Source of the DNA: Clostridiaceae bacterium M8S5
Lineage (GTDB): Bacteria; Bacillota; Clostridia; Tissierellales; MCWD3
DNA: 64,000 nucleotides
Direction of reading: 5' to 3'
Assembly: GCA_029227815.1 (NCBI GenBank)
Contig: CP118523.1
Span: 992,001-1,056,000 of the forward strand
Both the position numbers and the translations under genes were made by a program. Shown here piece after piece: positions 3,198 to 49,393 of this stretch. Positions within the stretch are counted from its first letter, which is position 1; each line of letters begins with the position of its first letter. The notes below the pieces were generated by a model. The model was given only the letters and a program-made list of their open reading frames with translations. It did not search any database and was not told the origin of the DNA.

Positions 3198-3851
3198 ATG
3201 AAAAAATGCGTAGTAATATTCAGTGGTGGACAAGATAGTACAACGTGTCTATTTTGGGCAAAGAAAGAATTTGACGTAGTAGAAGCTATATCTTTTGATT
3301 ATAAACAAAGACACAGTTTAGAGCTTGAGTGTGCAAAGAAAATCTGTCAAAAGAATGGAGTAAAGCACACCATATTAGATATGGAACTGTTAAACCAATT
3401 AGCGCCAAATTCATTGACAAGAAGTGATATAGAAGTTGATGAAAAATCGAGTGAAGGAGTACCGAATTCATTTGTAGAAGGTAGAAACCTATTGTTTCTA
3501 ACATTTGGTGCGATTTATGCTAAAGTAAATAAAATAAATCACATTATAACAGGAGTATCTCAAAGTGATTATAGTGGATATCCAGACTGTAGAGATATAT
3601 TTATCAAGTCTACGAATGTTACGCTCAATTTAGCAATGGATTATGATTTTGTTATCCATACACCTTTGATGTGGATAGACAAAAAAGAAACATGGAAACT
3701 AGCTGACGATTTAGGAGTATTGGATATAGTAAAAAACGAAACATTGACATGCTATAATGGAATTATAGGAGATGGGTGTGGTAAATGTCCTGCCTGTGAG
3801 TTAAGAAGAAGAGGATATGACGAATATATGAAAACTAAAGGGGCATGTTAA
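3198..3851 (+). CDS. queC: 7-cyano-7-deazaguanine (preQ0) synthase QueC
   Basis: QueC uses two ATP and ammonia to turn 7-carboxy-7-deazaguanine into preQ0. The 217-residue protein starts with the PP-loop SGGQDSTT at residues 9-16. It has EGRNLLFL and the [10 protein letters not shown] substrate segment in the middle, and it ends with the zinc-binding cluster [14 protein letters not shown]. It is the last recognised gene of the operon. queF is not next to it. The 3' end of this gene is copied, in decayed form, twice downstream (4278-4373 and 4677-4774). Confidence 0.95.
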
Positions 3852-3939
3852 AATTGAGTAGCAGAGATTACTTAAAAGGTAAGTGAGCAACAGAAATTTT
3901 AACAATAACTCAGAAATTGGGCTTTTGTATACAGCCTGA

Positions 3940-3966
3940 AACTGCTTGAGATAAGCAGTTTTTTAT
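3940..3966 (+). terminator. Rho-independent terminator after queC
   Basis: AACTGCTT and AAGCAGTT form an 8-bp perfect stem with a 5-base loop, followed directly by a T-rich run. It lies about 90 bases after the queC stop and ends the queuosine operon. Confidence 0.8.
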
Positions 3967-4037
3967 ATATACATTTGGAACAAAAAGGAAAATTTGATAA
4001 TCATATGAATGTAAGATAAAATAAAAGGGGTGTTAGT

Positions 4038-4190
4038 ATGAAAAAACTAATCAAAAAAGTTCAAATATCAACACTAACCAAAAATGGAGTATTACCAATT
4101 TGTCATATTCCACATTGTTTATGTCATGTAGACTTAGATGATGCTGAGAGCAACAGAAGAAATGAATATCCATATGATTATGTTTATTAG
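4038..4190 (+). CDS. Small Cys-containing peptide, copy 1 of 3
   Basis: This predicted 50-residue peptide has a GGGGTG ribosome site eight bases before the ATG. It has a basic N-terminal part (MKKLIKKVQIS, then LTKNGV), a compact core CHIPHCLC, and an acidic then Tyr-rich end YPYDYVY. The same plan recurs in two tandem copies: Lys-rich leader, xLTKNGV, CxxPxCxC, and a YP...VY end. Conservation across copies supports translation. The leader-plus-Cys-core layout suggests a ribosomally made, modified peptide or a metal-binding peptide. I recall Cys-rich tandem peptide families in clostridia but cannot confirm membership. No radical SAM maturase or transporter lies beside it apart from queE upstream. 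Confidence 0.6.
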   Translation: MKKLIKKVQISTLTKNGVLPICHIPHCLCHVDLDDAESNRRNEYPYDYVY

Positions 4191-4205
4191 AAATTGATGA
4201 AAAAG

Positions 4206-4241
4206 CTACTTAGTCAAGATAATTGACTGGGTAGTTTTTTT
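4206..4241 (+). terminator. Terminator after peptide copy 1
   Basis: CTACTTAGTCAA (4206-4217) pairs with TTGACTGGGTAG (4223-4234), 12 bp with two G-U pairs, followed by a T-run. Equivalent stems follow copies 2 and 3. Confidence 0.85.
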
Positions 4242-4277
4242 ATTAAATAAAAATATAACACTATAAAGATTGGGTAT

Positions 4278-4373
4278 CATAAAAGAAACATGATTGTTGG
4301 AGGGGATGTGGTAAGGTAAGTGCCTTGCATGTGTTAAGAGGAATAGGATATAAAAGATATAAGATATGGAACA
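4278..4373 (+). pseudogene. Decayed duplicate of the queC 3' end, remnant 1
   Basis: The stretch can be aligned by eye to the last ~100 bases of queC. Landmarks in the same order are GATGTGGTAA (queC: GGTGTGGTAA), then TGCCTTGCATGTGTTAAGAGG (queC: TGTCCTGCCTGTGAGTTAAGAAG), then an AGGATAT/ATATGG end. Frameshifts and stops make it non-coding. It belongs to a ~395-bp tandem unit with the following peptide gene. Confidence 0.65.
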
Positions 4374-4432
4374 ATAAGCATTATTCAATAATCTTATTAG
4401 TGTAATATAAAATAATACAAGGGGGGATTTAT

Positions 4433-4585
4433 ATTAAAAGACTAATTAGAAAAGTTCAGATATCAACAATAACTAAAAATGGAGTATTATCTAATTGTGG
4501 TATTCCACTTTGTTCATGTAATGTAGACTTAAATGATAGATTAATCAACATAAAAGAGCAATATCCACATGATTTTGTTTATTAG
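4433..4585 (+). CDS. Small Cys-containing peptide, copy 2 of 3 (ATT start or dying copy)
   Basis: The 50-codon frame is the same length as copy 1 and stays open throughout. It encodes IKRLIRKVQIS, TKNGV, CGIPLCSC and YPHDFVY at matching positions. A GGGGGG ribosome site is present, but the codon at the start position is ATT instead of ATG. Either translation starts at AUU, as known for infC, or the copy has lost its start and is a young pseudogene. The intact reading frame favours recent or continuing function. Its terminator follows at 4601. Confidence 0.5.
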   Translation: MKRLIRKVQISTITKNGVLSNCGIPLCSCNVDLNDRLINIKEQYPHDFVY

Positions 4586-4600
4586 AAATTGATGAAAAGT

Positions 4601-4637
4601 TACCTAGTTAAGATAATTGAACTGGGTAGTTTTTTTA
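4601..4637 (+). terminator. Terminator after peptide copy 2
   Basis: TACCTAGTT (4601-4609) pairs with AACTGGGTA (4620-4628), with one G-U pair, then a run of seven T. Confidence 0.85.
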
Positions 4638-4676
4638 TTCAATAAATAATATAACAATATAATAAATTAGATAATA

Positions 4677-4774
4677 CAAAAGACATATAATTGTTGGAGA
4701 TGATGTGGTAAGATAAGTTTCTTACTTCTGAATTAAGAAGAAGAGAATATGGGCGAGTACAAAATATGGAACAA
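4677..4774 (+). pseudogene. Decayed duplicate of the queC 3' end, remnant 2
   Basis: It contains TGATGTGGTAAGATAAG, a middle segment like that of remnant 1, and GAATTAAGAAGAAGAGAATATG. The last of these is nearly identical to queC GAGTTAAGAAGAAGAGGATATG. Frameshifts and stops prevent coding. It shares with remnant 1 the ATTGTTGGAG and ATATGGAACAA segments, so the two remnants descend from one duplicated unit. Confidence 0.65.
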
Positions 4775-4831
4775 AGATAATGATTCAATAATCTTATTAG
4801 TGTAATATAAAATTTATAAGAGGGGGATAAC

Positions 4832-4996
4832 ATGAAAAAACTAATTAAAAATGTTAAAATATCAATGCTTACCAAAAACGGAGTGATGTGTACGCCAGTA
4901 TGTCATGGGCCGATGTGTATGTGTGGTCCTAATCACGAAGGTGATTCTGTTGGTGAAACAAGACAAAAGTATCCATTATACAACGTATATATGTAA
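4832..4996 (+). CDS. Small Cys-containing peptide, copy 3 of 3
   Basis: This is a 54-residue peptide with an AGGGGG ribosome site before the ATG. It keeps the MKKLIKNVKIS leader, LTKNGV, the core CHGPMCMC and the end YPLYNVYM. It adds one Cys before the core (VMCTPVC) and a Gly-rich segment after it. It is more diverged than copies 1 and 2, mostly in the core, as expected if the N-terminal part is a conserved recognition leader. A terminator follows at 5044. Confidence 0.6.
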   Translation: MKKLIKNVKISMLTKNGVMCTPVCHGPMCMCGPNHEGDSVGETRQKYPLYNVYM

Positions 4997-5043
4997 GATA
5001 GGAATAGATGATGACAAGAGCTACATAAACGATAAATATCTAT

Positions 5044-5080
5044 AAAAGCTACCTAGTTAATTTCTGGGTAGCTTTTATAG
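5044..5080 (+). terminator. Terminator after peptide copy 3
   Basis: AAAAGCTACCTAG (5044-5056) pairs with CTGGGTAGCTTTT (5064-5076), 13 bp with one G-U pair; the T-run forms the 3' side. Confidence 0.85.
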
Positions 5081-5233: not shown

Positions 5234-5279
5234 GTGTTATCATATATCTAACACATATAATTGATTAGAGGTGTATATT

Positions 5280-5603
5280 TTGAACATACAATTTAAAAAA
5301 GGAGTTTTGGAGCTGTGCGTATTGTCCATACTCAGTAAAAAAGAGTGTTATGGCTATGAGCTAGTTGATGTGATATCAAACAACATAACCATATCCGAGG
5401 GAACAATATATCCACTGCTTAGAAGACTCAAAAAAGATGGATATGTGACTACTTATTTAAAAGAGTCGACTGAAGGTCCTCCTCGAAAGTACTATAGACT
5501 AACTGATACAGGAGAGGAGATGAAAAATGAGCTAACAAAGGAGTGGCAGTTATTTGTTAGCAATGTTAATGGTATATTAGAAGGTGGTGTTATAAATGAA
5601 TAA
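5280..5603 (+). CDS. PadR-family transcriptional regulator
   Basis: A 107-residue winged-helix regulator. The family pattern is clear: [44 protein letters not shown] (recognition helix and wing) and [13 protein letters not shown] chose TTG at 5280 because AGAGGTG lies seven bases before it and the NIQFKKG start matches the family. The GTG at 5271 is part of that ribosome site. It overlaps the next gene by eight bases. PadR-DUF1700-DUF4097 neighbours usually form an envelope-stress-type module, and all parts are present here by 9.6 kb. An inverted repeat upstream may be its operator. Confidence 0.9.
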
Positions 5604-6168
5604 GAGAGAATTTTTAAATTCGCTAAAATACAATCTAAAGGGACTTTCCAGCGAAGAAGTTAAAGATATACTATTTGATTATGAGGAGTATTTTGAGGTA
5701 GGAGCTAATAAAGGACGTAGCGAAGTTGAGATAGCGAACTCTCTAGGAAATCCAAAGCAATTAGCAAAGCAATTAAAAGCAACATACATGATACAGAATG
5801 CGCAAGAGAAATCTACAACACGTAATTTATTCAAAGCTGTGATGGCGTGTATAGGTCTTGGATTTTTTAATATTATATTCATTATGCCTTTTTTAGGAAT
5901 AGTTATTGCAGTATTTGGAGTATTACTATGTGGAGTAGCAATAGTGATAATTAGTATATTAGTATTGATAATAAGTGTGTTTATGCCACAATATTATAGT
6001 GATTTGTATATTCAAAATACACCTGCAATTAATATATTTTTATGTATAGGGCTTGCATGCTTAGGGTATCTGATATCAGTAGGTTCATATTCATTAATAA
6101 AATTATTCTATAGAGTATCATTAAAGTATTTAAAACTAAATTTAAAGATAATCACAGGAAATGAATGA
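5596..6168 (+). CDS. DUF1700 (HAAS-domain) membrane protein
   Basis: A 190-residue protein. Its first ~70 residues are the helical DUF1700/HAAS domain ([35 protein letters not shown]). Three to four hydrophobic helices follow between residues ~85 and 175. Such proteins are normally co-transcribed with a PadR regulator and act with DUF4097 proteins at the membrane; the exact function is unknown. It overlaps padR by eight bases. Confidence 0.85.
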
Positions 6169-6514
6169 TTAAGAGTATAAAATTATAAGGAAAATTAATT
6201 ATAAATACTTAATGTAACTATAAGTTTTTATGTTATAAAAGAAATTGAGCTAACCTATAAATTAAATGCAAAGCATTGTACTTTTAATTGGAAATATAAG
6301 TAGATATGACCATAATTTTTAGGTAGAGCTTAATTATAGATTTTTGCTATAATATAAAAGTGCTTTGTATATCAAAGTATAAGTGAAGGTTTGTTGTAAA
6401 GAAGGTTTATAAAAACTATTAGTTTAAATCATTAAGTATAGTTCGAAGTTTTCAAGATATTATTTAATATCATTGAGTTCTATAACTAAATGAATAACAC
6501 TAAGGGGGAACATC
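6169..6514 (+). promoter_or_regulatory. Gene-free leader with an extended -10 promoter
   Basis: No ORF of note. TTTTTGCTATAAT places an extended -10 (TGCTATAAT, TATAAT at 6348-6353) about 155 bases before the phosphotransferase start. The leader carries CTTTGTATATCAAAG, a short hairpin. I see no recognisable riboswitch. Confidence 0.4.
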
Positions 6515-7528
6515 ATGAACGAAGGTAAATATAATGTACAGTTTGACACATTGTGTGCTGTATTAGAACTAGGTGAGATTATAGAAAGTCCTAAAGCTAT
6601 AACAGGTGGACTGTTGCATAGAATGTATGAAGTAAATACAACAAGAGGAAGATATGCTATAAAGGCATTAAATCCTCAGATTATGTTAAGACCAACAGCT
6701 AAAAGACATACATTAAATGCCGAGAGAATATCTGCTATAGCATTAAAGAATGGATTATTGACTATAACAGCTAAAAGATTCAATAATGATATTATTCAAA
6801 ACGTAGAAAACCAACATTATTTAATATTTGATTTAATAGATGGAAGAAGTTTGAAAGTTGATGAAATCAATACAGAGCATTGCCGTAAAATTGGAGACAT
6901 ATTAGCCAAACTACATAGCATAGATTTTTCAGAGCTAAATATAAAAAATGATATATTACAAAATGAACCTTTAATCGATTGGGAATACTATTTGAACAAG
7001 GGCAAAAAAGCAATGTGGATTGATGAATATAGAGAAATAATGAACAGACTTTATGAATGGGACAAACAAGCTAAAGCATCAGTAAAATTGCTTTCTAAGC
7101 AAATGATAATAAGTCATAGAGATTTAGATCCTAAAAATGTAATGTGGAATAATGATAATCCAATAATCATCGACTGGGAGTCATCGAACTACATAAATCC
7201 TATGCATGAACTGATAGAAACGGCTATTTATTGGGCTGAAGATGAGAATAAAATTGTTGATGAAAGCAAGTTTTTATCCTGCATAAAAGCATATAAAAAG
7301 AGAATAGATATACCTAAGATGGATTGGAAGACAGTATTAACAGCCTGTTTCTCTGGAAAATTGGGTTGGTTAGAGTACAGTCTTAAGAGATCTTTGGGCA
7401 TAGAGTCTACAGATGAAAAAGAACAAATACTGGGAACAGAGCAAGTAATAAATACAATTAAATTAATAAAATTATATAGTACTTCCATAATAAAAATAGA
7501 GAAGTGGCTTAATGCAAAAGGAGAGTAA
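6515..7528 (+). CDS. Aminoglycoside phosphotransferase (APH)-family kinase
   Basis: A 337-residue kinase-like protein. The APH catalytic loop HRDLDPKNVMWN lies near residues 205-216 and the metal-binding DWESSN near 225. GGLLHRMYEV near residue 32 is the ATP-binding strand and YAIKAL holds the nucleotide Lys. Homologs phosphorylate aminoglycosides, choline, homoserine or other small alcohols, and the substrate cannot be read here. AAGGGGG precedes the ATG. It is only three bases from the DUF4097 gene that follows, so the two are co-transcribed, which ties it to the envelope module rather than to a resistance island. Confidence 0.85.
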   Translation: MNEGKYNVQFDTLCAVLELGEIIESPKAITGGLLHRMYEVNTTRGRYAIKALNPQIMLRPTAKRHTLNAERISAIALKNGLLTITAKRFNNDIIQNVENQHYLIFDLIDGRSLKVDEINTEHCRKIGDILAKLHSIDFSELNIKNDILQNEPLIDWEYYLNKGKKAMWIDEYREIMNRLYEWDKQAKASVKLLSKQMIISHRDLDPKNVMWNNDNPIIIDWESSNYINPMHELIETAIYWAEDENKIVDESKFLSCIKAYKKRIDIPKMDWKTVLTACFSGKLGWLEYSLKRSLGIESTDEKEQILGTEQVINTIKLIKLYSTSIIKIEKWLNAKGE

Positions 7529-7531
7529 ATT

Positions 7532-8458
7532 ATGAATTTTAAGAACAAAAAATTTAATATAAAAATAGTTATAGTAGTTATGATTTGTGCGTTTACAATA
7601 GCAGGAGTATTGATGGTTAAAGAAGGAGGACTAGATTACTTCAAAAAAGGCTTTAGCATTGGATTTATGAATAAGAAAGATGAAGTCAAAAAAGAAGAAA
7701 GTAAAAAGGTTCCACAAACTATTAATATAGATACATTAGAGAAGATTAAGGATTTAAAAGATATCAATAATATTGATATAGATACAGTATCCTCAAATAT
7801 AAATATTTTATCTTCAACATCAGATAGTATATCAATCCACTTTAAAGGAACTGCTAAGGGATATGTTAAAGGAGAAGAACCTAAGCTTATAATAAATAAA
7901 AATGATAATGATATAAGAATTGAGATTAAACATAAAAATTCAAATATTTCTGGTAGTAGATATTTCAATGCTTCATTAGAAATTCGAGTACCTACAAAGC
8001 ATTTTAAACTATTTTCAGTAAATAGTGTGTCAGGAAATATTAAAGCCAAAAACATAACATCAGATATTTTTAGAGCAGAGACAGTATCTGGGGATCAAGA
8101 TATCAAAGAGTGTACCAATAAGGATGTGCAGACAAATTGTGTAAGTGGAAATGTGAAGTTGGCTAATATAACTGGTAGCTTGAATATTGATAATACTTCA
8201 GGAAATTTAAATGTTGAGTTTGATAAGATAACAGATAGCATAAAGATGGAAACTGTCTCAGGTAATATTGCTATGATAATACCTAATGGTTCAAACTTAG
8301 ATTTAAAGATGGACACAACATCTGGAGAACTATCAGTATATAGCCCATTGAGTATTCCTAAAAAACAAAAATCGGCTAATATTACAATTGGAGATGGAGG
8401 AAATGATGTAAGTTTGAGTAGTGTCTCAGGTAATATTTATGTAAACAACAAAAAATAG
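7532..8458 (+). CDS. DUF4097 beta-repeat envelope protein, copy 1
   Basis: A 308-residue protein with one N-terminal membrane segment (residues ~11-28), a Lys/Glu-rich linker, and an extracellular part. That part repeats short strands of the form VSGNI, TVSGD or TSGNL, typical of DUF4097 putative adhesin or beta-helix domains. It shares IDTVSSNINI, GTAKGYVKGEEPKLI and the ending pattern with the next gene (8682), so the two are paralogs. Family members accompany PadR/DUF1700 pairs and are thought to take part in envelope sensing; function here is inferred from neighbours. Confidence 0.85.
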   Translation: MNFKNKKFNIKIVIVVMICAFTIAGVLMVKEGGLDYFKKGFSIGFMNKKDEVKKEESKKVPQTINIDTLEKIKDLKDINNIDIDTVSSNINILSSTSDSISIHFKGTAKGYVKGEEPKLIINKNDNDIRIEIKHKNSNISGSRYFNASLEIRVPTKHFKLFSVNSVSGNIKAKNITSDIFRAETVSGDQDIKECTNKDVQTNCVSGNVKLANITGSLNIDNTSGNLNVEFDKITDSIKMETVSGNIAMIIPNGSNLDLKMDTTSGELSVYSPLSIPKKQKSANITIGDGGNDVSLSSVSGNIYVNNKK

Positions 8459-8681
8459 AAACAGGAGTATTATTGAAAAAAAGTAGCATGAAAAATCATC
8501 TTTAGTTGAATTATGACAGGCAAGAGCAAACTCAGTGCTACTATATTGATTAATAAATTTGTAAATGATAGTATTAAACTAACACTTTAATACAACAAAC
8601 TTAATCCTTTTTCACCTTAATAATAATAATTAAATAAACTTAAAATTGAAACAATAACTAAAATAAAAGGGGAGTGTCTAC

Positions 8682-9641
8682 ATGCGTAAAACAAATAAAA
8701 AGAATATATTAATAACAGCTATATTAGTAATGGTAATTTCAATAACTACTGCAAGTACGTTTGCTTGTGCAAAGGGTGGATTTTTTTCATCAGTATGGGA
8801 TTATATAAAAAGTAAACTTCAATTCAACTATGTTGTAGGAGATGGCAATGTTGTTGTATCAGGAGAAGATAAGGATCTAGATGATGGAGAAAACACAGGA
8901 AAAGAAATCAAAATAGATGATAAAAAAATAATAGATGATGTTGAAGGTGTAACTGACATATCTATAGAATCAGTTGCTTCAAATATAACAATAATACCAT
9001 CAAAAAGTAATAAATTTCAGGCGCACTTGTATGGTACTGCTAAGGGATATAAAGAAGGAAAAGAACCAAAACTTATATGTAAAAGAGAAGATGATAAGAT
9101 AGTATTAGAAATAGATCACAAGGGGTCAAAGACATTTGGAAAATTCGTATCAAGAAGTTTTAAATGTAAGTTAGATATAGAAGTTCCTAAAAGTGTTTAT
9201 AAAAATATAAAAGTTAATAGCACATCAGGAGACATAAAGATAAATGATATTTCTACAAATGATTTTAGTATTAAGGCAGTGTCAGGTGATATAGAAGTCA
9301 AGGATTGTAAAGTAGACGATATCAGCTGTAAAAATACAAGCGGAGACATAATAATAGACAAGATATCAGCAAAAGTCACTGCATCAACAGTTTCAGGTGA
9401 TGTAGAGCTAAATATGATAAAAATGAATGGTGATATTAAAGCAAATTCAATATCTGGAGATATTGAAGTGTCAGTACCAGAAAAGTCCGACATGGATTTA
9501 TACATGAAAACTACATCTGGAACTTTAGAAGCTGATGTTTCAGGAAAAAATAGTAGTAAAAATACCATATCAGCAACTATAGGAAATGGTACAAATAAAG
9601 TAAACTTAACTACAATATCAGGTGATGTTAGTATTAAATAG
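8682..9641 (+). CDS. DUF4097 beta-repeat envelope protein, copy 2
   Basis: A 319-residue paralog of the preceding protein. A signal or anchor segment lies at residues ~8-29 (ILITAILVMV), followed by an acidic linker and then DUF4097 repeats with at least eight SGD(I/V) turns. It has its own AGGGGAG ribosome site. A 223-bp gap separates it from copy 1, so it may have its own promoter, though none is clear. A strong terminator follows at 9688. Confidence 0.85.
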   Translation: MRKTNKKNILITAILVMVISITTASTFACAKGGFFSSVWDYIKSKLQFNYVVGDGNVVVSGEDKDLDDGENTGKEIKIDDKKIIDDVEGVTDISIESVASNITIIPSKSNKFQAHLYGTAKGYKEGKEPKLICKREDDKIVLEIDHKGSKTFGKFVSRSFKCKLDIEVPKSVYKNIKVNSTSGDIKINDISTNDFSIKAVSGDIEVKDCKVDDISCKNTSGDIIIDKISAKVTASTVSGDVELNMIKMNGDIKANSISGDIEVSVPEKSDMDLYMKTTSGTLEADVSGKNSSKNTISATIGNGTNKVNLTTISGDVSIK

Positions 9642-15302: not shown

Positions 15303-17468
15303 ATGAAAAAGATAAACTTAAAAGGACTAATATTGTTTATATTAATATTAATATTTTTATTTAAGACGAGCATATTAGCAACAACGTCAGTGAAGATGGA
15401 TGTAAATATAGGCTTTGATGGCTTATACAGAGCAGAAGAAACAACACCTATACGGATAGATGTAAATGCATATAGTGGACTAAAAGGTACAGTAAAGATT
15501 AGCTATAACAAAGAGCTTGTGAAGATGTATGCAGAAGATGATACATATACAGAGACATTCAATAAAGATATTAAGTTATTGAGTGATGAAGAAACAGTGT
15601 ATATAAATGTCACAATTCCAAAGGGTTGTGAAAGAATACATATATCACTTATAGATGAAGAAGGAAAAGAACTAGCGTATGAAACTAAAAGCTTAAAAAC
15701 ATCAGCAATAAATAACCAAAAAATTGTAGCAGTATACACAGATGATATCAATAAATATGAATACATAGACGATATTATGGTAGATGATTTAGCTGATTCA
15801 TATTTCAAAGTTTTGAATATTAAAGATGTCAAGTTAGATGATAAAAGAATTCTAGATAACTTTGATTATATAATTGTAAATAACAACCTAATAAACAATA
15901 TAGATATAAAAAAAGAAGAAACACTTGTAAAATGGATCAAAAAGGGCGGAGTAGCATTAATTGAAGAAAATACAAAAAGTAAGCTTATAGATACAGTCAA
16001 ACTAAAAGAAGGTAGAAAGGTATATGATTTATCTATGGGTAAAATAGTATTCATAGATAAAGATATAAAAGATTTGAAAAATCAAGCATATATGAGCTAT
16101 ATTTTGAGAATGAACATGAATTACGCTAGAATGGATAGCAAAATCCATACAAATAATATGAATACATTATTAAGACATATACCAAGGAGAAAGCTACCAT
16201 CTATAAAGAAAATTATGCTTATACTCTTGATATATATTATAATTGTAGGACCAGTTAATTATTTTACTCTAAAGCTATACGATAAAAGAGAAAAAATATG
16301 GTTTACAAGTCCATTGATAGCCTTATTTATTACGGTATCTATATTTTTAACTAGTAGAGGAAGTGTATTTGATAAAGCTATATTTAACAGTGTTACTATA
16401 GCAGATTTAACAATAGATAAAACACAGGCTTATGTTCAAAATGAAGTTGGTATAACAGGTATAAAAGGTGAAAATGTAAAGATTGGCGTAGAAAATAATG
16501 TGGATTTTAGACTTAGAAATAGGATAAAACTTAGTGAGTTCTTTGAAAATAAAGAGAAGGGTGGTATAGACTATTTTCTAGATGAAGAGAAAAATATCAC
16601 ACTTGCAAATAGTAATATATGGGATTTTAACTATATTGGAACAGAAGAAACTAGAAAAATAGATAATCTAATAAAAGCAGATATAATGTTTAACAGTAAA
16701 GGGGTTAATGGACTAATCAAAAATGTTTCAGATATGATGCTCTATGATTGTGACTTAGTTATAGGAGATTTTCATCTGGATATAGGAAACTTAGAGCCAG
16801 GGAAGTCTATTAGTTTAAATAAAAGATTTGATAAGCTTTATAAAGGCAATAGATATCATTCATCAAATACTGATATGTTAGGAGAAGATGTGAAAGGACT
16901 AATACTAAATCAGTATAAAAATACACTAATGCATAAACCGTATGACAATATAAAAGTAATAGCATGGAACACTGATAAAATTGCTGGAGATTTAAAAATT
17001 GATGATAAAAAGGAAAGAATAGACAGGAATCTTTTGATATTACCAGTAAATTTGGGTATCAAAAAAGATGAAATAATAGATTTTCCTAAAGGAATGATTA
17101 AGCCCAAAATTATAGAATCACCATCATTAGTTTTTAATAGTAATATAAATACTTATAGTAATACTTATAGTAATATAAATACTTATGGTAAAGGCGTATG
17201 CATATTCGAATTAAGAGGTATAAAAGGGCTAGAAGTCGAAGAAGTTAGTATGGATTTACACACTACAAAGGATAACAATAAAGTTAATTACTATATATAT
17301 AATTATGAAGATAACATATGGGATAAGCTTTCAGAAGAAACTTTGACGATTAAAGAGAATATCAATAAATACTATAACGAAATATATGGACTAAGGCTAA
17401 AATTACATTCAAAAGTTGAAACAAACTTTTATATCCCTGAATTTGGTATAAAAGGAGTTGGTAAATAA
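15303..17468 (+). CDS. Membrane-anchored extracytoplasmic protein of an ABC export operon
   Basis: A 721-residue protein with a signal peptide (residues ~7-26), a large outer part (to ~295) and two hydrophobic segments near residues ~303-322 and ~333-350 (IMLILLIYIIIVGPVNYFTL, then SPLIALFITVSIFL). A second soluble domain extends to the end. The IVGPVNYF element and the placement next to an ATPase and an ABC-2 permease are typical of large accessory proteins in these export operons; the cargo is unknown. A small in-frame duplication (AGTAATATAAATACTTAT at 17139 and 17169) gives the repeat SNINTYSNTYSNINTYGKG. The stop overlaps the next ATG by one base. Confidence 0.65.
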   Translation: MKKINLKGLILFILILIFLFKTSILATTSVKMDVNIGFDGLYRAEETTPIRIDVNAYSGLKGTVKISYNKELVKMYAEDDTYTETFNKDIKLLSDEETVYINVTIPKGCERIHISLIDEEGKELAYETKSLKTSAINNQKIVAVYTDDINKYEYIDDIMVDDLADSYFKVLNIKDVKLDDKRILDNFDYIIVNNNLINNIDIKKEETLVKWIKKGGVALIEENTKSKLIDTVKLKEGRKVYDLSMGKIVFIDKDIKDLKNQAYMSYILRMNMNYARMDSKIHTNNMNTLLRHIPRRKLPSIKKIMLILLIYIIIVGPVNYFTLKLYDKREKIWFTSPLIALFITVSIFLTSRGSVFDKAIFNSVTIADLTIDKTQAYVQNEVGITGIKGENVKIGVENNVDFRLRNRIKLSEFFENKEKGGIDYFLDEEKNITLANSNIWDFNYIGTEETRKIDNLIKADIMFNSKGVNGLIKNVSDMMLYDCDLVIGDFHLDIGNLEPGKSISLNKRFDKLYKGNRYHSSNTDMLGEDVKGLILNQYKNTLMHKPYDNIKVIAWNTDKIAGDLKIDDKKERIDRNLLILPVNLGIKKDEIIDFPKGMIKPKIIESPSLVFNSNINTYSNTYSNINTYGKGVCIFELRGIKGLEVEEVSMDLHTTKDNNKVNYYIYNYEDNIWDKLSEETLTIKENINKYYNEIYGLRLKLHSKVETNFYIPEFGIKGVGK

Positions 17469-45097: not shown

Positions 45098-48000
45098 TTA
45101 TTTGTATGATGTAATATAAGGATCTATAGATTGCATAAATTCATCAAAATTGTTTGGCGTTAGTTTATCTATCTGTATTGTAATAGGTCTAATATCACTA
45201 TTAGAAGATGTACTAGGACTCCCATGATTATATGATTGATAAGTCATATGAGGAAGATCTAAGGTTAGTTTATCAAGGGTATCTATAGGTAGAACATATT
45301 CACCTTTTAGTAATTTTGCTACCATCTCATGCTTAGAGTTAAGTGAATGACCTACAAATCCACCACTGTGAAAACTTTTCAAATCATCATAACTGAAATG
45401 ATCACCATCAATTTTATATTTCCTGCGAATATCATCATTGTCATTTTTTAAATCTTGAATTTCAGGATGATTCCAAGTGCCATGTATGTTTCTTAATATT
45501 TTAGCTTTTCTTTTGTTTTCCTTATAGGTAGCAAAAACATCATGAGGCATACCAGTAACTAATTTTTCTTTATCAGAACGTGTATCTTTTGGTCCTGAAG
45601 TAGAGTTAATTGTTAATCCAGTCTCAATACTAGAGCTATCTACATCTAGATTTGTGATAGTGCGCAGTTTAGCTTTATATGCATTAATAAAGCTATCCAA
45701 ATCATCAAACAATCCTGTAGCAAGTGATGACGTGATATCTTTACCAGCTTCTAATGCTACAGATGCATTTTTATCATATTCTGATTCCATGTCATTAAAA
45801 AAAGTTTTAGCTAGTTTAAGGGCATCACCATGACCCAACTCTTTAATTAAATATAGGGCTTCTTGATGTATATTTTCAGCATCAAGTTTCTCTTGCCAAT
45901 ATACATTGAAGTTATCCATTTCAGTTCTATGGCGTTCCTCAGCTTTTCTAATATCTTCATTGTAGTTTTCGTTTTCTCTATCCTTTTCTTCTTGAAGATT
46001 AGTTAGTTCTTGTTGTAGATTCTCTCTAATTCTATCATTTTGCATTTCTTGCTCTTTTTGACTCATCTGCTCTTCAAGTTCTTTGACTTTATGTCTATCG
46101 TAGGTATATATTTCTTTACCTGTAGCTTCGTCTATATATGCAAAACGTGTATCATTTTTGACTTTTTTGATTTCTTCTCTTATTTTAGCTAAGTCATTTA
46201 GTTTTTGTTGCTTATTTATTTGCTTATCAAGCATATCAATCTCTAACTGCTTGTTCTTGATAGAGTATTCCATAGCAGTATTGTAATCTTTTTGTTCTTC
46301 AGTCAAATCGTCTATTTCAGTTTTATGTTTATCAGTAAGCTTTTCATTAGCTAGCTTTTTACTTATAGAGTAGCTTTTCTTTAGTAGAGATTCTATTTGG
46401 TTTTCCATAGAGTCCTTAATTTTAGCAATGGCATATTCATTGTCTTTCATACTCAGAGTGTTTTTATCTATTTCATTAGTTAATTTTTTCTGAGTGTTTT
46501 GTAGACTTTTTAGAGTATTTTCGTAGTCGTAAGATTTAGGATCAAGTTCATCTATCATCTTACTTACTTCACCAAGTGATTTTTTATATTTTTCATTTAA
46601 TATTTTTAATTCTTCAATAGTTTTTTGACGGTTTTTTATTTTATTGTTGTATACAGGCAAAAGAGCAGTTTTATCATTTTCATTTGCTAGATTTAGCATT
46701 CTTTCTTCTTTATCGAGCAATTTCAAGCTATGGTTAAGTGTGTTTAGATTTTTTTTGAATTCATTAAAATCTACTTTATACGATGGCTTTTTATAGGTTA
46801 AATTTGCTATCTTTTCTTCAAGACGCCATCTTTTGTCCTTTTCCATTTTGTTCCCGTAGTTTTTTAGAACACTGACTAATTTTTCTATATAAGTCTGCTT
46901 ATTAATTGTTTTCATTCTATATTCGTGTTCTATTTCGTCTAAAAGTTTTTCATAGAATTTTTTTTCTGGCAAGCCACTATTTTTTCTACTTCTTAAATTA
47001 TGGACTTTTTCTTTTAAACTCCGCTGCTCTTCGATACTCAAATTTTTTCTATTATCTTTTAATTGCTTCTCAAGCTTATTAGCATACTCTTTATCATTAA
47101 TTACATCCATAGCATAATCGTGATTAATTTGTTCCATTTCCAATTTATAAGCAGTTCTATTAAATAACGGTTCATTTGGTACTATATCATGAGCATTTTC
47201 TTCTGCAAAAGCATGAGAAGAATATTTAGTGCCAGTTGGACTAGTGTGAATACTTACTTTACCTATACCTAGTTGTTTTTTTAATCTCTTATTTTGACGT
47301 AATACGATATCATAAGGCTCAATTATATCTTTGATTAGCTTTTCAATTTCTTTATCTATTTCTTTTATACTCACTGGGAGATTATCAAGTTGTTTAAGAA
47401 GTTTATCCATATCTGTTCCATCAATGTTTATACAGCCAGGTGATTCAAAGGCTTTTTCCAGTATAGGTTCTATTACATCATTATTTTCATTTTGTAGATT
47501 AGAGCCAGTTTTTTTAGCTTCTAGTTTTTTTATTTTTTCCATGCCTTCTTCGTACTTTTCTTTATTGGCTTCTAGATATTTCTCGTTTTTCTCTTGCAGT
47601 TTCATTTTTTCAGCTCTGCGTGCTAACTCTATTGCTTTAGCTAAATCTTTATATGCTATAGTTTGTCCATCAATATATTCAATAATTGATGGGCATAATT
47701 CTATAAACTTTTCTTCAAGTTCTATTAATTCTTCTTTTTCTTCAAAAGACAAGTTGCCAAATTCTAATTTTTGTATTAATTCGTTATATCTGCCTATTAT
47801 ATCGTCCATATTTTTTAATTTTTGTTTATCTTGTTCAATGCTTTCTAATAGTTCTTCGTTAAGATTTTCCTGAGCAGAAGACCAAGAAGAAATAAGCGTT
47901 ATTATCACTGGAATTAATACAAGTCCCGCTGTTAATGCGGATGTCATAGCAGTAGTAGAAGCTGTAGCAGCTTTAGTGACTGTTGTTTGTGTTTGAAGCA

Positions 48001-49393
48001 TCGCAATTCTAGCCTGACCCTGCATAGTACTTACTGTTTCTTGAGCACTAAGAGCACTTAAAGTACCTGATTGTAGTGTATTTGCGCTAGCTATGCTATT
48101 CACGCTTCCAAGAAGTAGTCTGTTAGTCTGAGTTACTTCCATCATACCTGGGTTTTTCGATATAATACTTCCAAGCCATGAAACAAGCTTAGAGCGTTCA
48201 AGTAATGCAGTTGCAACATTAATGCGTCCGAGTGCAGTGAACAATTCAGCAGAAGTGCTTTTAGCTTCTCTCATCTTAGGACTTAAATTGCTAAAAGCAT
48301 TCATTGCTTCTGTAGTACCGCTTATTAGGTCATAGATATTGCTTAACCCTTCCTCACCAAAACTCATAGCAAGTTCCATCATAGCTACCTTTAGAGATTC
48401 TATTTGCATGTTGAAATCTTGCATTACCATTGAATTTTGCTCCATAGCTACACCTACAGATTCCATGGACATAGTCATCAAATCAGAGAGATTGCTCCAG
48501 CCATCAATTAAGGTGGTCATTACTTCGGTGTCAACTGAGCTATCAATATTAAGACTTATATCACTGCTACTTAGATTGTTCATCTTGGAACTAAGTTCAT
48601 CCATGATATCAGTGAAATTCCTGAGCAGGGTTTCACCATTGGTCGATAACTCAGTTATATTGACTCCTAGAACTTCTAAACCTCTTAGATTACTCATATC
48701 CATGCTATCAAATAGAGATTTTAGAGCATAAGATATACGTATGCTACCAGTCTCTAACTGGTTAAATACCATAGATGTAATAGCATTGAGAGTATGAAAA
48801 TCAATCCCTAGGTTTCTTGCAGATTCACCCGCTATAGATATTACTTCAGCTAGAGTTCTCATAGACACACCTGTGTTATTAGAGATGTTACACCAACTAT
48901 CTAGTATCATACTTGCACTTGAAACATCACCATTAGCCATATTTCTAATAGCATCATTTAAGAAACCAACAGCCTCACCAGCATCTCTAAAGTTTCCAGC
49001 ATTGAGACTGAGACTTGTAATTTTAACAAGCTCTTTTAATTTTTCTATATTGTTGATACCTGCTTTTACCCATAAGCCCTGAATAGCTTGAAGTTCTTTT
49101 ATAGATCTACCAGTAGCTATACCAACCTGTATAGTCATTTTAGCTAACTCTTTCATTTCCTTATTAGTGGCTTTAAGGCTATGTTGTAATTTTGTTTGTT
49201 CCTTTTCAAAATCCTTATAGACCGCTATAACACTTTTTATAGCCTTTAGATTTTTAGAGGTATCATTTAAGCCACTATTTATATTATCTAGAGATTTAGT
49301 AAAGCTTTCCCCAAGCTTACTAATATCTTTTTGTGCTTCGCTTAACGAAGATTTTAGAGTTTTTAAATCATCAGTAGTTGCTTTAATATCCAA
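45098..49393 (-). CDS. Phage tail tape-measure protein (TP901 type)
   Basis: At 1431 residues this sets the tail length; at the usual ~1.5 angstrom per helical residue it would give a tail near 200 nm. Residues ~70-330 match the TP901 core domain with TGRSIKELQAIQGLWVKAGI, NTGVSMRTLAEVISIAGESA and GIDFHTLNAITSMV. A hydrophobic helix lies near residues 482-505. The middle ~550-1200 is charged coiled coil, and the C-terminal FHSGGFVGHS with EYVLPIDTLDKL is typical of tape measures. Start TTG 49393 follows AAAGGAGG. A 285-bp untranslated gap holding a palindromic repeat separates it from the chaperone genes. Confidence 0.93.
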   Translation of the reverse strand: MDIKATTDDLKTLKSSLSEAQKDISKLGESFTKSLDNINSGLNDTSKNLKAIKSVIAVYKDFEKEQTKLQHSLKATNKEMKELAKMTIQVGIATGRSIKELQAIQGLWVKAGINNIEKLKELVKITSLSLNAGNFRDAGEAVGFLNDAIRNMANGDVSSASMILDSWCNISNNTGVSMRTLAEVISIAGESARNLGIDFHTLNAITSMVFNQLETGSIRISYALKSLFDSMDMSNLRGLEVLGVNITELSTNGETLLRNFTDIMDELSSKMNNLSSSDISLNIDSSVDTEVMTTLIDGWSNLSDLMTMSMESVGVAMEQNSMVMQDFNMQIESLKVAMMELAMSFGEEGLSNIYDLISGTTEAMNAFSNLSPKMREAKSTSAELFTALGRINVATALLERSKLVSWLGSIISKNPGMMEVTQTNRLLLGSVNSIASANTLQSGTLSALSAQETVSTMQGQARIAMLQTQTTVTKAATASTTAMTSALTAGLVLIPVIITLISSWSSAQENLNEELLESIEQDKQKLKNMDDIIGRYNELIQKLEFGNLSFEEKEELIELEEKFIELCPSIIEYIDGQTIAYKDLAKAIELARRAEKMKLQEKNEKYLEANKEKYEEGMEKIKKLEAKKTGSNLQNENNDVIEPILEKAFESPGCINIDGTDMDKLLKQLDNLPVSIKEIDKEIEKLIKDIIEPYDIVLRQNKRLKKQLGIGKVSIHTSPTGTKYSSHAFAEENAHDIVPNEPLFNRTAYKLEMEQINHDYAMDVINDKEYANKLEKQLKDNRKNLSIEEQRSLKEKVHNLRSRKNSGLPEKKFYEKLLDEIEHEYRMKTINKQTYIEKLVSVLKNYGNKMEKDKRWRLEEKIANLTYKKPSYKVDFNEFKKNLNTLNHSLKLLDKEERMLNLANENDKTALLPVYNNKIKNRQKTIEELKILNEKYKKSLGEVSKMIDELDPKSYDYENTLKSLQNTQKKLTNEIDKNTLSMKDNEYAIAKIKDSMENQIESLLKKSYSISKKLANEKLTDKHKTEIDDLTEEQKDYNTAMEYSIKNKQLEIDMLDKQINKQQKLNDLAKIREEIKKVKNDTRFAYIDEATGKEIYTYDRHKVKELEEQMSQKEQEMQNDRIRENLQQELTNLQEEKDRENENYNEDIRKAEERHRTEMDNFNVYWQEKLDAENIHQEALYLIKELGHGDALKLAKTFFNDMESEYDKNASVALEAGKDITSSLATGLFDDLDSFINAYKAKLRTITNLDVDSSSIETGLTINSTSGPKDTRSDKEKLVTGMPHDVFATYKENKRKAKILRNIHGTWNHPEIQDLKNDNDDIRRKYKIDGDHFSYDDLKSFHSGGFVGHSLNSKHEMVAKLLKGEYVLPIDTLDKLTLDLPHMTYQSYNHGSPSTSSNSDIRPITIQIDKLTPNNFDEFMQSIDPYITSYK

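Follow-up and report, generated by a model that had tools for sequence, protein, structure and literature searches.

The locus considered here lies in a window of 64,000 nucleotides (the whole stretch of DNA that was analysed) from the chromosome of Clostridiaceae bacterium M8S5, and consists of three small peptide genes that stand in a row behind queC, the last gene of a queD/queE/folE/queC operon. Positions without a unit are those of the window, and every feature of the locus described below lies on the + strand. Directly upstream of the queuosine operon, positions 1-1490 encode a double-cubane-cluster reductase-like protein and a CoA-dehydratase activase-like ATPase. Positions 5271-9641 hold, in a row, genes for a PadR-like regulator, a HAAS-domain protein, an APH-like kinase and DUF4097-type proteins. 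Two large proteins of the window, of 721 amino acids (15303-17465, + strand) and 1431 amino acids (45098-49393, - strand), have no Pfam match at E 1e-5.

Organization of the peptide genes

The first-pass annotation had placed three related frames of 50-54 amino acids behind queC, and these are indeed found at 4038-4190 (copy 1, MKKLIKKVQISTLTKNGVLPICHIPHCLCHVDLDDAESNRRNEYPYDYVY, 50 amino acids), 4433-4585 (copy 2, 50 amino acids) and 4832-4996 (copy 3, MKKLIKNVKISMLTKNGVMCTPVCHGPMCMCGPNHEGDSVGETRQKYPLYNVYM, 54 amino acids), as defined by reading frame and alignment and, for copy 1, by the family profile described below. Copies 2 and 3 are respectively 60% and 54% identical to copy 1, and the alignment bears out the conserved basic leader (MKKLIKKVQISTLTKNGV), the CxxPxCxC core and the YP..VY tail that had been described for all three. 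It contains 20 invariant positions, which comprise K2, L4, I5, V8, I10, S11, T14, K15, N16, G17 and V18 in the leader part, C22, P25, C27 and C29 in the core, D35, and Y44, P45, V49 and Y50 in the tail; the cores themselves read CHIPHCLC, CGIPLCSC and CHGPMCMC in copies 1, 2 and 3.

Each gene is provided with its own strong ribosome site, namely AGGGG at 4026-4030, AGGGGGG at 4420-4426 and GAGGGGG at 4820-4826, and also, as had been proposed, with its own terminator, since RNAfold predicts a hairpin with a T run immediately 3' of each frame (4200-4241, -26.5 kcal/mol, with a T7 tail; 4595-4636, -16.3 kcal/mol; 5043-5076, for which the segment 4997-5090 folds at -25.8 kcal/mol). A terminator scan also places a hairpin for the queC transcript at 3938-3964. 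With a strong ribosome site and a terminator apiece, the three frames are far beyond chance expectation, and the arrangement is best explained if each peptide gene is a monocistronic unit. Promoter-like blocks precede the genes at 3994-4022 (TTGATA-17-TAAAAT, 10/12 matches, although the number of sites of that kind is not above chance) and, as one and the same block of 31 nt, at 4383-4413 and 4783-4813 ahead of copies 2 and 3. No relevant NCBIfam or Pfam precursor entry matches the three peptides, and a search of the window with Rfam gave nothing at the gathering threshold and a single chance match (E 0.97).

One correction concerns the start codons: copies 1 and 3 begin with ATG, but copy 2 has ATT in its place, so that it either relies on a rare start codon or is a decaying or incipient pseudogene. 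Taken together with a dN/dS of about 1.1 between copies 1 and 2, a value based on 50 codons that indicates unconstrained divergence (0.37 in the leader, 1.9 in the core), the missing ATG would suit an array that multiplied with a peptide system and is now a decaying relic, out of use here. Copies 1 and 3, however, retain the frame, the ribosome site and the terminator, and their dN/dS over the same number of codons is 0.37, which makes a relic distinctly improbable.

Duplication behind queC

The queC gene (3198-3851) encodes a canonical 7-cyano-7-deazaguanine synthase (TIGR00364, 271.8 bits against a cut-off of 150.3; PF06508, 279 bits) in which the motifs of the canonical enzyme, as set out in PMC13329287, are present, and it is the single QueC match in the genome. 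Its last codons and stop are supplied by a truncated copy (positions 52-148) of a dispersed 148-nt foldback repeat, which lies between queC and copy 1 at 3842-3939 and is 90.8% identical to the consensus. Two further remnants of the gene, which had escaped the first-pass annotation, precede the later peptide genes: a decayed queC 3' end at 4301-4360 before copy 2 (local score 44, against a maximum of 31 in 1000 shuffles) and another at 4689-4751 before copy 3 (47 against 32, likewise in 1000 shuffles). Decayed queC ends stand ahead of copies 2 and 3, and the array therefore arose when a unit of roughly 400 nt, made up of the queC tail and a peptide gene, was duplicated in tandem; the period is 395-399 nt.

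This history bears on the suggestion, made when the array was first noticed, that the peptides are linked to the preQ0 pathway and might be substrates of deazaguanine conjugation by the adjacent QueC. The array is positioned behind queC, and Cap9 and probably QatC, which belong to the QueC family, modify protein N-termini (PMC13279940); as in the type IV CBASS Cap9 and the QatC protein-ligase systems, a QueC-family protein here stands beside a gene for a small protein. Unlike those systems, however, the linkage is not conserved: the sister species has the same queC operon, with a QueC that is 87% identical, and no such peptide behind it, while the relatives of the peptides are located elsewhere. 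The sole QueC is canonical and sits within a full preQ0 operon. Neither of the two features of an NDG (deazaguanylated) substrate system is present, there being no dedicated QueC paralogue and no glycine exposed after removal of the initial Met. QueC-family protein ligases require an N-terminal glycine and use an MG.. N-terminus on their substrates (PMC13279940), but the N-termini here read MKK or IKR. Since the duplication carried the queC 3' end along, queC is a positional neighbour only, and the position of the array is explained without conjugation. The link was accordingly dropped: the neighbouring queuosine genes are very probably unrelated to the peptides, and conjugation by QueC is hardly credible.

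A genus-wide peptide repertoire

A first survey with a profile of three rows, the window peptides alone, gave mostly chance-level matches within the order, and the same profile confirmed no relative among viral contigs and genome contigs; two weak matches in the sister genome were useful. These led to arrays of peptides of 40-52 amino acids with the pattern MKKLxKK...(C)xCxC, some of which directly adjoin a CcpM radical-SAM gene. A 30-peptide profile built without the window peptides recovers copy 1 (E 0.001) and copy 2 (E 0.57) in their own genome together with dozens more, and comparison of the window's three peptides with this independent set, profile against profile, gives a probability of 97.1% (E 7.6e-11) with leader and core aligned. 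Scored singly, copy 1 reaches 23.2 bits with the family profile, compared to a maximum of 9.9 for shuffled sequences, while copies 2 and 3 score weakly at 15.5 and 13.4 bits.

With all peptides in the profile, the census at E up to 0.05 comprises 47 places here and 29 in the sister species. Each of the remaining 148 genomes of the order has at most one or two chance-level matches (best 0.001), and in the class (391 genomes) only one genome, G504, is convincing among the matches listed, with two paired peptides that lie 2.5 kb away from the one CcpM it has; the class counts are lower bounds because at most the best 20 candidates were scored per genome. The peptide collection was built from profile matches, pattern matching and neighbours, a choice on which the later counts still partly depend; the most independent tests are the search of the same genome with the window-free profile, the class-wide search, and the comparison of the window peptides with the independent set. 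The related peptides that the earlier proposal called a new family are real, but they form one local offshoot of a far larger repertoire that spans the genus. Within it the window trio is unusual, with a core spacing of CxxPxCxC rather than the CxCxC of most relatives and with a conserved YP..VY tail.

The 47 peptide frames of this genome are genes. A Shine-Dalgarno sequence precedes 45 of them, where the rate in the same DNA is 7% for the remaining short ATG frames and 72% for long ones, and the figure of 7% is if anything high because a few family members remained among the short controls. Over 75 peptides, hardly any variation is seen at M1, K2, L4 and K6, whereas the residues that separate the cysteines differ freely from one peptide to the next. 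This pattern is the reverse of what would be produced by a metal site whose N-terminus plays no part, and it therefore tells against the metal-binding peptides proposed in the first-pass annotation and, more broadly, against cysteine peptides that act on metals or in redox reactions in their unmodified form. Their small size, their cysteine-rich CxxPxCxC core and a neighbourhood without a maturase all suit that reading, but the conserved leader and the location of relatives in CcpM clusters are left unexplained by it, and it is considered quite unlikely.

Islands, turnover and the foldback repeat

The 47 genes are grouped in 24 islands, each of 1-4 genes, that extend over the whole chromosome; the other 23 islands cannot adjoin another queC because the genome contains a single QueC match. 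One of them, a four-gene island with CxxCxC or CxCxC cores, is found 1.1-1.8 kb ahead of the start of the window (locus L036:3164-3890, 990.2-990.9 kb). Only 8 of the 47 genes are found within 7 kb of a CcpM, whereas in 23 other CcpM genomes, searched with a profile made for their own precursors, this is the case for 41 of 46 precursors, which number 1-5 per genome where any were found; dispersal and number are thus a special feature of the set in this genome. Between the two species no pair of peptides is more than 49% identical, compared to 87% for QueC: the repertoire turns over fast between them. Islands also lie behind the same trxB-like gene in both species (L133, at 925 kb, and L064 on sister contig C37), and their peptides and gene numbers are quite different.

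A mobile flank common to the islands was looked for and rejected, as only the dispersed 148-nt repeat lies near some of them, and not near all. This repeat (consensus from L223-L251, RNAfold about -63 kcal/mol) has at least 43 copies in the genome among the matches listed. In a survey that yielded 154 first-look candidates, of which the best 40 were scored, the full copies are found at terminators with the same 20-25 nt hairpin on both sides, the hairpin differing from site to site: for 31 copies the median score of a copy's own flanks is 23, against 6 for mispaired flanks, and the right-flank hairpin is present in 29 of the 31. The repeat thus resembles a small mobile element that has terminator hairpins as its targets and duplicates them. 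Tandem runs of two or three units about 177 nt apart, with the local terminator hairpin between them, occur at L144:5623-6126, L036:3978-4460, L245 and L059:16564-16888. Six of the 40 repeat loci lie at most 3 kb from a peptide island, a zone that covers 3.5% of the chromosome (p 0.0025), and this proximity may only reflect shared intergenic sites.

CcpM maturases and proposed modification in trans

Systems of the CcpM type make cysteine-rich RiPPs with a TIGR04068 maturase, a TIGR04065/CLI_3235 precursor and a TIGR04066 partner. CcpM proteins above the curated TIGR04068 cut-off number three in this genome, at 730.8, 3422.5 and 4137.1 kb, and two in the sister, and peptide arrays adjoin several of the CcpM genes in both. 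The cluster at 730 kb, whose CcpM scores 615 bits, also encodes TIGR04066 and a QhpE-like subtilase. The likeness to CcpM-type systems thus extends from the MKKL[G/x]KK leader and the cysteine-rich core to the enzymes present in the genome. The window peptides, with an MKKLxKK-type leader followed by a cysteine-rich core, have the form of CcpM-type precursors in the wide sense, but they differ from the curated ones in their CxxPxCxC core and in falling under the TIGR04065 cut-off (26 bits): a genome search with that model passes one peptide, at 3420849, and does not have the window's three among its matches at E up to 1. Also counting against a CcpM reading, the array is not adjacent to a maturase, the nearest CcpM (730.8 kb) being more than 260 kb from the array at 996.0 kb in a window that starts at 992.0 kb.

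The leader nevertheless ties the set to CcpM precursors elsewhere. Compared profile against profile with CcpM-adjacent precursors of other genera, the genus set matches at 95.9% (E 6e-9) over 18 columns of the leader only, and the window's three alone at 43.8% (E 2.4e-4). When scored with a profile of the precursors from the other genera, 45 of the 74 peptides of the genus exceed the 99th percentile of shuffled sequences, copy 1 among them but not copies 2 and 3. On the side of the enzyme, a structural model of the CcpM from the 730 kb cluster (pLDDT 86.5) aligns with CteB (5why) over residues 5-461, the small N-terminal domain included (Z 25.5, rmsd 4.2, 391 residues), and CteB (5wgg) matches by sequence as well over 6-430. 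By this alignment, and from background on CteB, the N-terminal domain (about residues 1-88) is a putative RRE and is called RRE-like here.

The reading preferred here, with a probability of about 0.72, is that the window genes encode orphan precursors in a RiPP system of the radical-SAM kind and that a CcpM encoded elsewhere modifies these in trans. The first-pass suggestion of modified-peptide precursors gains support from the large leader/core set that also flanks CcpM in this genome and its sister. MKKLxKK, together with some 10 residues, would be the N-terminal recognition leader before the cysteine core of a peptide of 50-54 amino acids; a CcpM-type radical SAM/SPASM maturase from a distant locus would bind this leader through its RRE-like N-terminal domain and form thioether links from the core cysteines, after which the subtilisin-like protease of the CcpM clusters would cut the leader off. 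The array would be one of the 24 islands of a genus-wide, fast-turning-over library with one leader and hypervariable cores. The genes and their family, the leader/core pattern, the coexistence with CcpM and its local adjacency to relatives, and the duplication are observed features of the sequence; the modification in trans, the thioether chemistry, the protease step and a biological role, antimicrobial or signalling, are inferred from them.

The precursors might instead be served by another radical-SAM enzyme of the genome, in which the CcpM model gives weaker matches at another 18 places, several of them clustered at 3687-3692 kb. A pattern search found no relative beside the 3687 kb enzymes, however, although the profile matches weakly at 3681.4 kb (E 0.017), and the leader is common to the peptides that flank CcpM in the two genomes and to CcpM precursors of other genera; a different maturase is therefore unlikely.

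Relation to known systems and implications

A reported product of a CcpM cluster, SacP23 of Paenibacillus polymyxa, is antibacterial (PMC10731318). For the prochlorosins and synechococsins, the enzymes ProcM and SyncM have 29 and 79 precursors that are scattered over the genome (PMC10783134). The present set resembles these in that numerous precursors combine a single conserved leader with hypervariable cores, in its scattered islands and in its few candidate modifying enzymes, but there the enzyme is a LanM, the leader is Nif11-like and the bacteria are others, while here the proposed enzyme is a radical SAM protein, so that the resemblance is one of working and not of kinship. The best solved relative of CcpM is CteB, the thioether-forming maturase of the SCIFF ranthipeptide system. 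SCIFF is a single conserved precursor, unlike the many hypervariable peptides found here. The system as a whole is probably, though with less assurance than the orphan-precursor reading, a natural combinatorial library in which some 47 hypervariable peptides at 24 sites, almost all of them orphans, carry one leader code for three promiscuous radical-SAM maturases that act in trans. A literature search, for which most subscription journals were out of reach, found no paper on such a CcpM repertoire.

If this is correct, the genus would possess a repertoire of the prochlorosin kind that is based on radical-SAM chemistry and whose peptides have been almost wholly replaced between sister species. 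The mining of genomes for precursors beside the maturase would then overlook more than 80% of the precursors of this system. The claim can be put to the test directly by way of the leader code MKKLxKK. In CcpM, nature would have tried a promiscuous radical-SAM tool, directed by the leader, on dozens of cores. The rapid turnover and the single-gene islands raise the question of how these genes move and what selects them.
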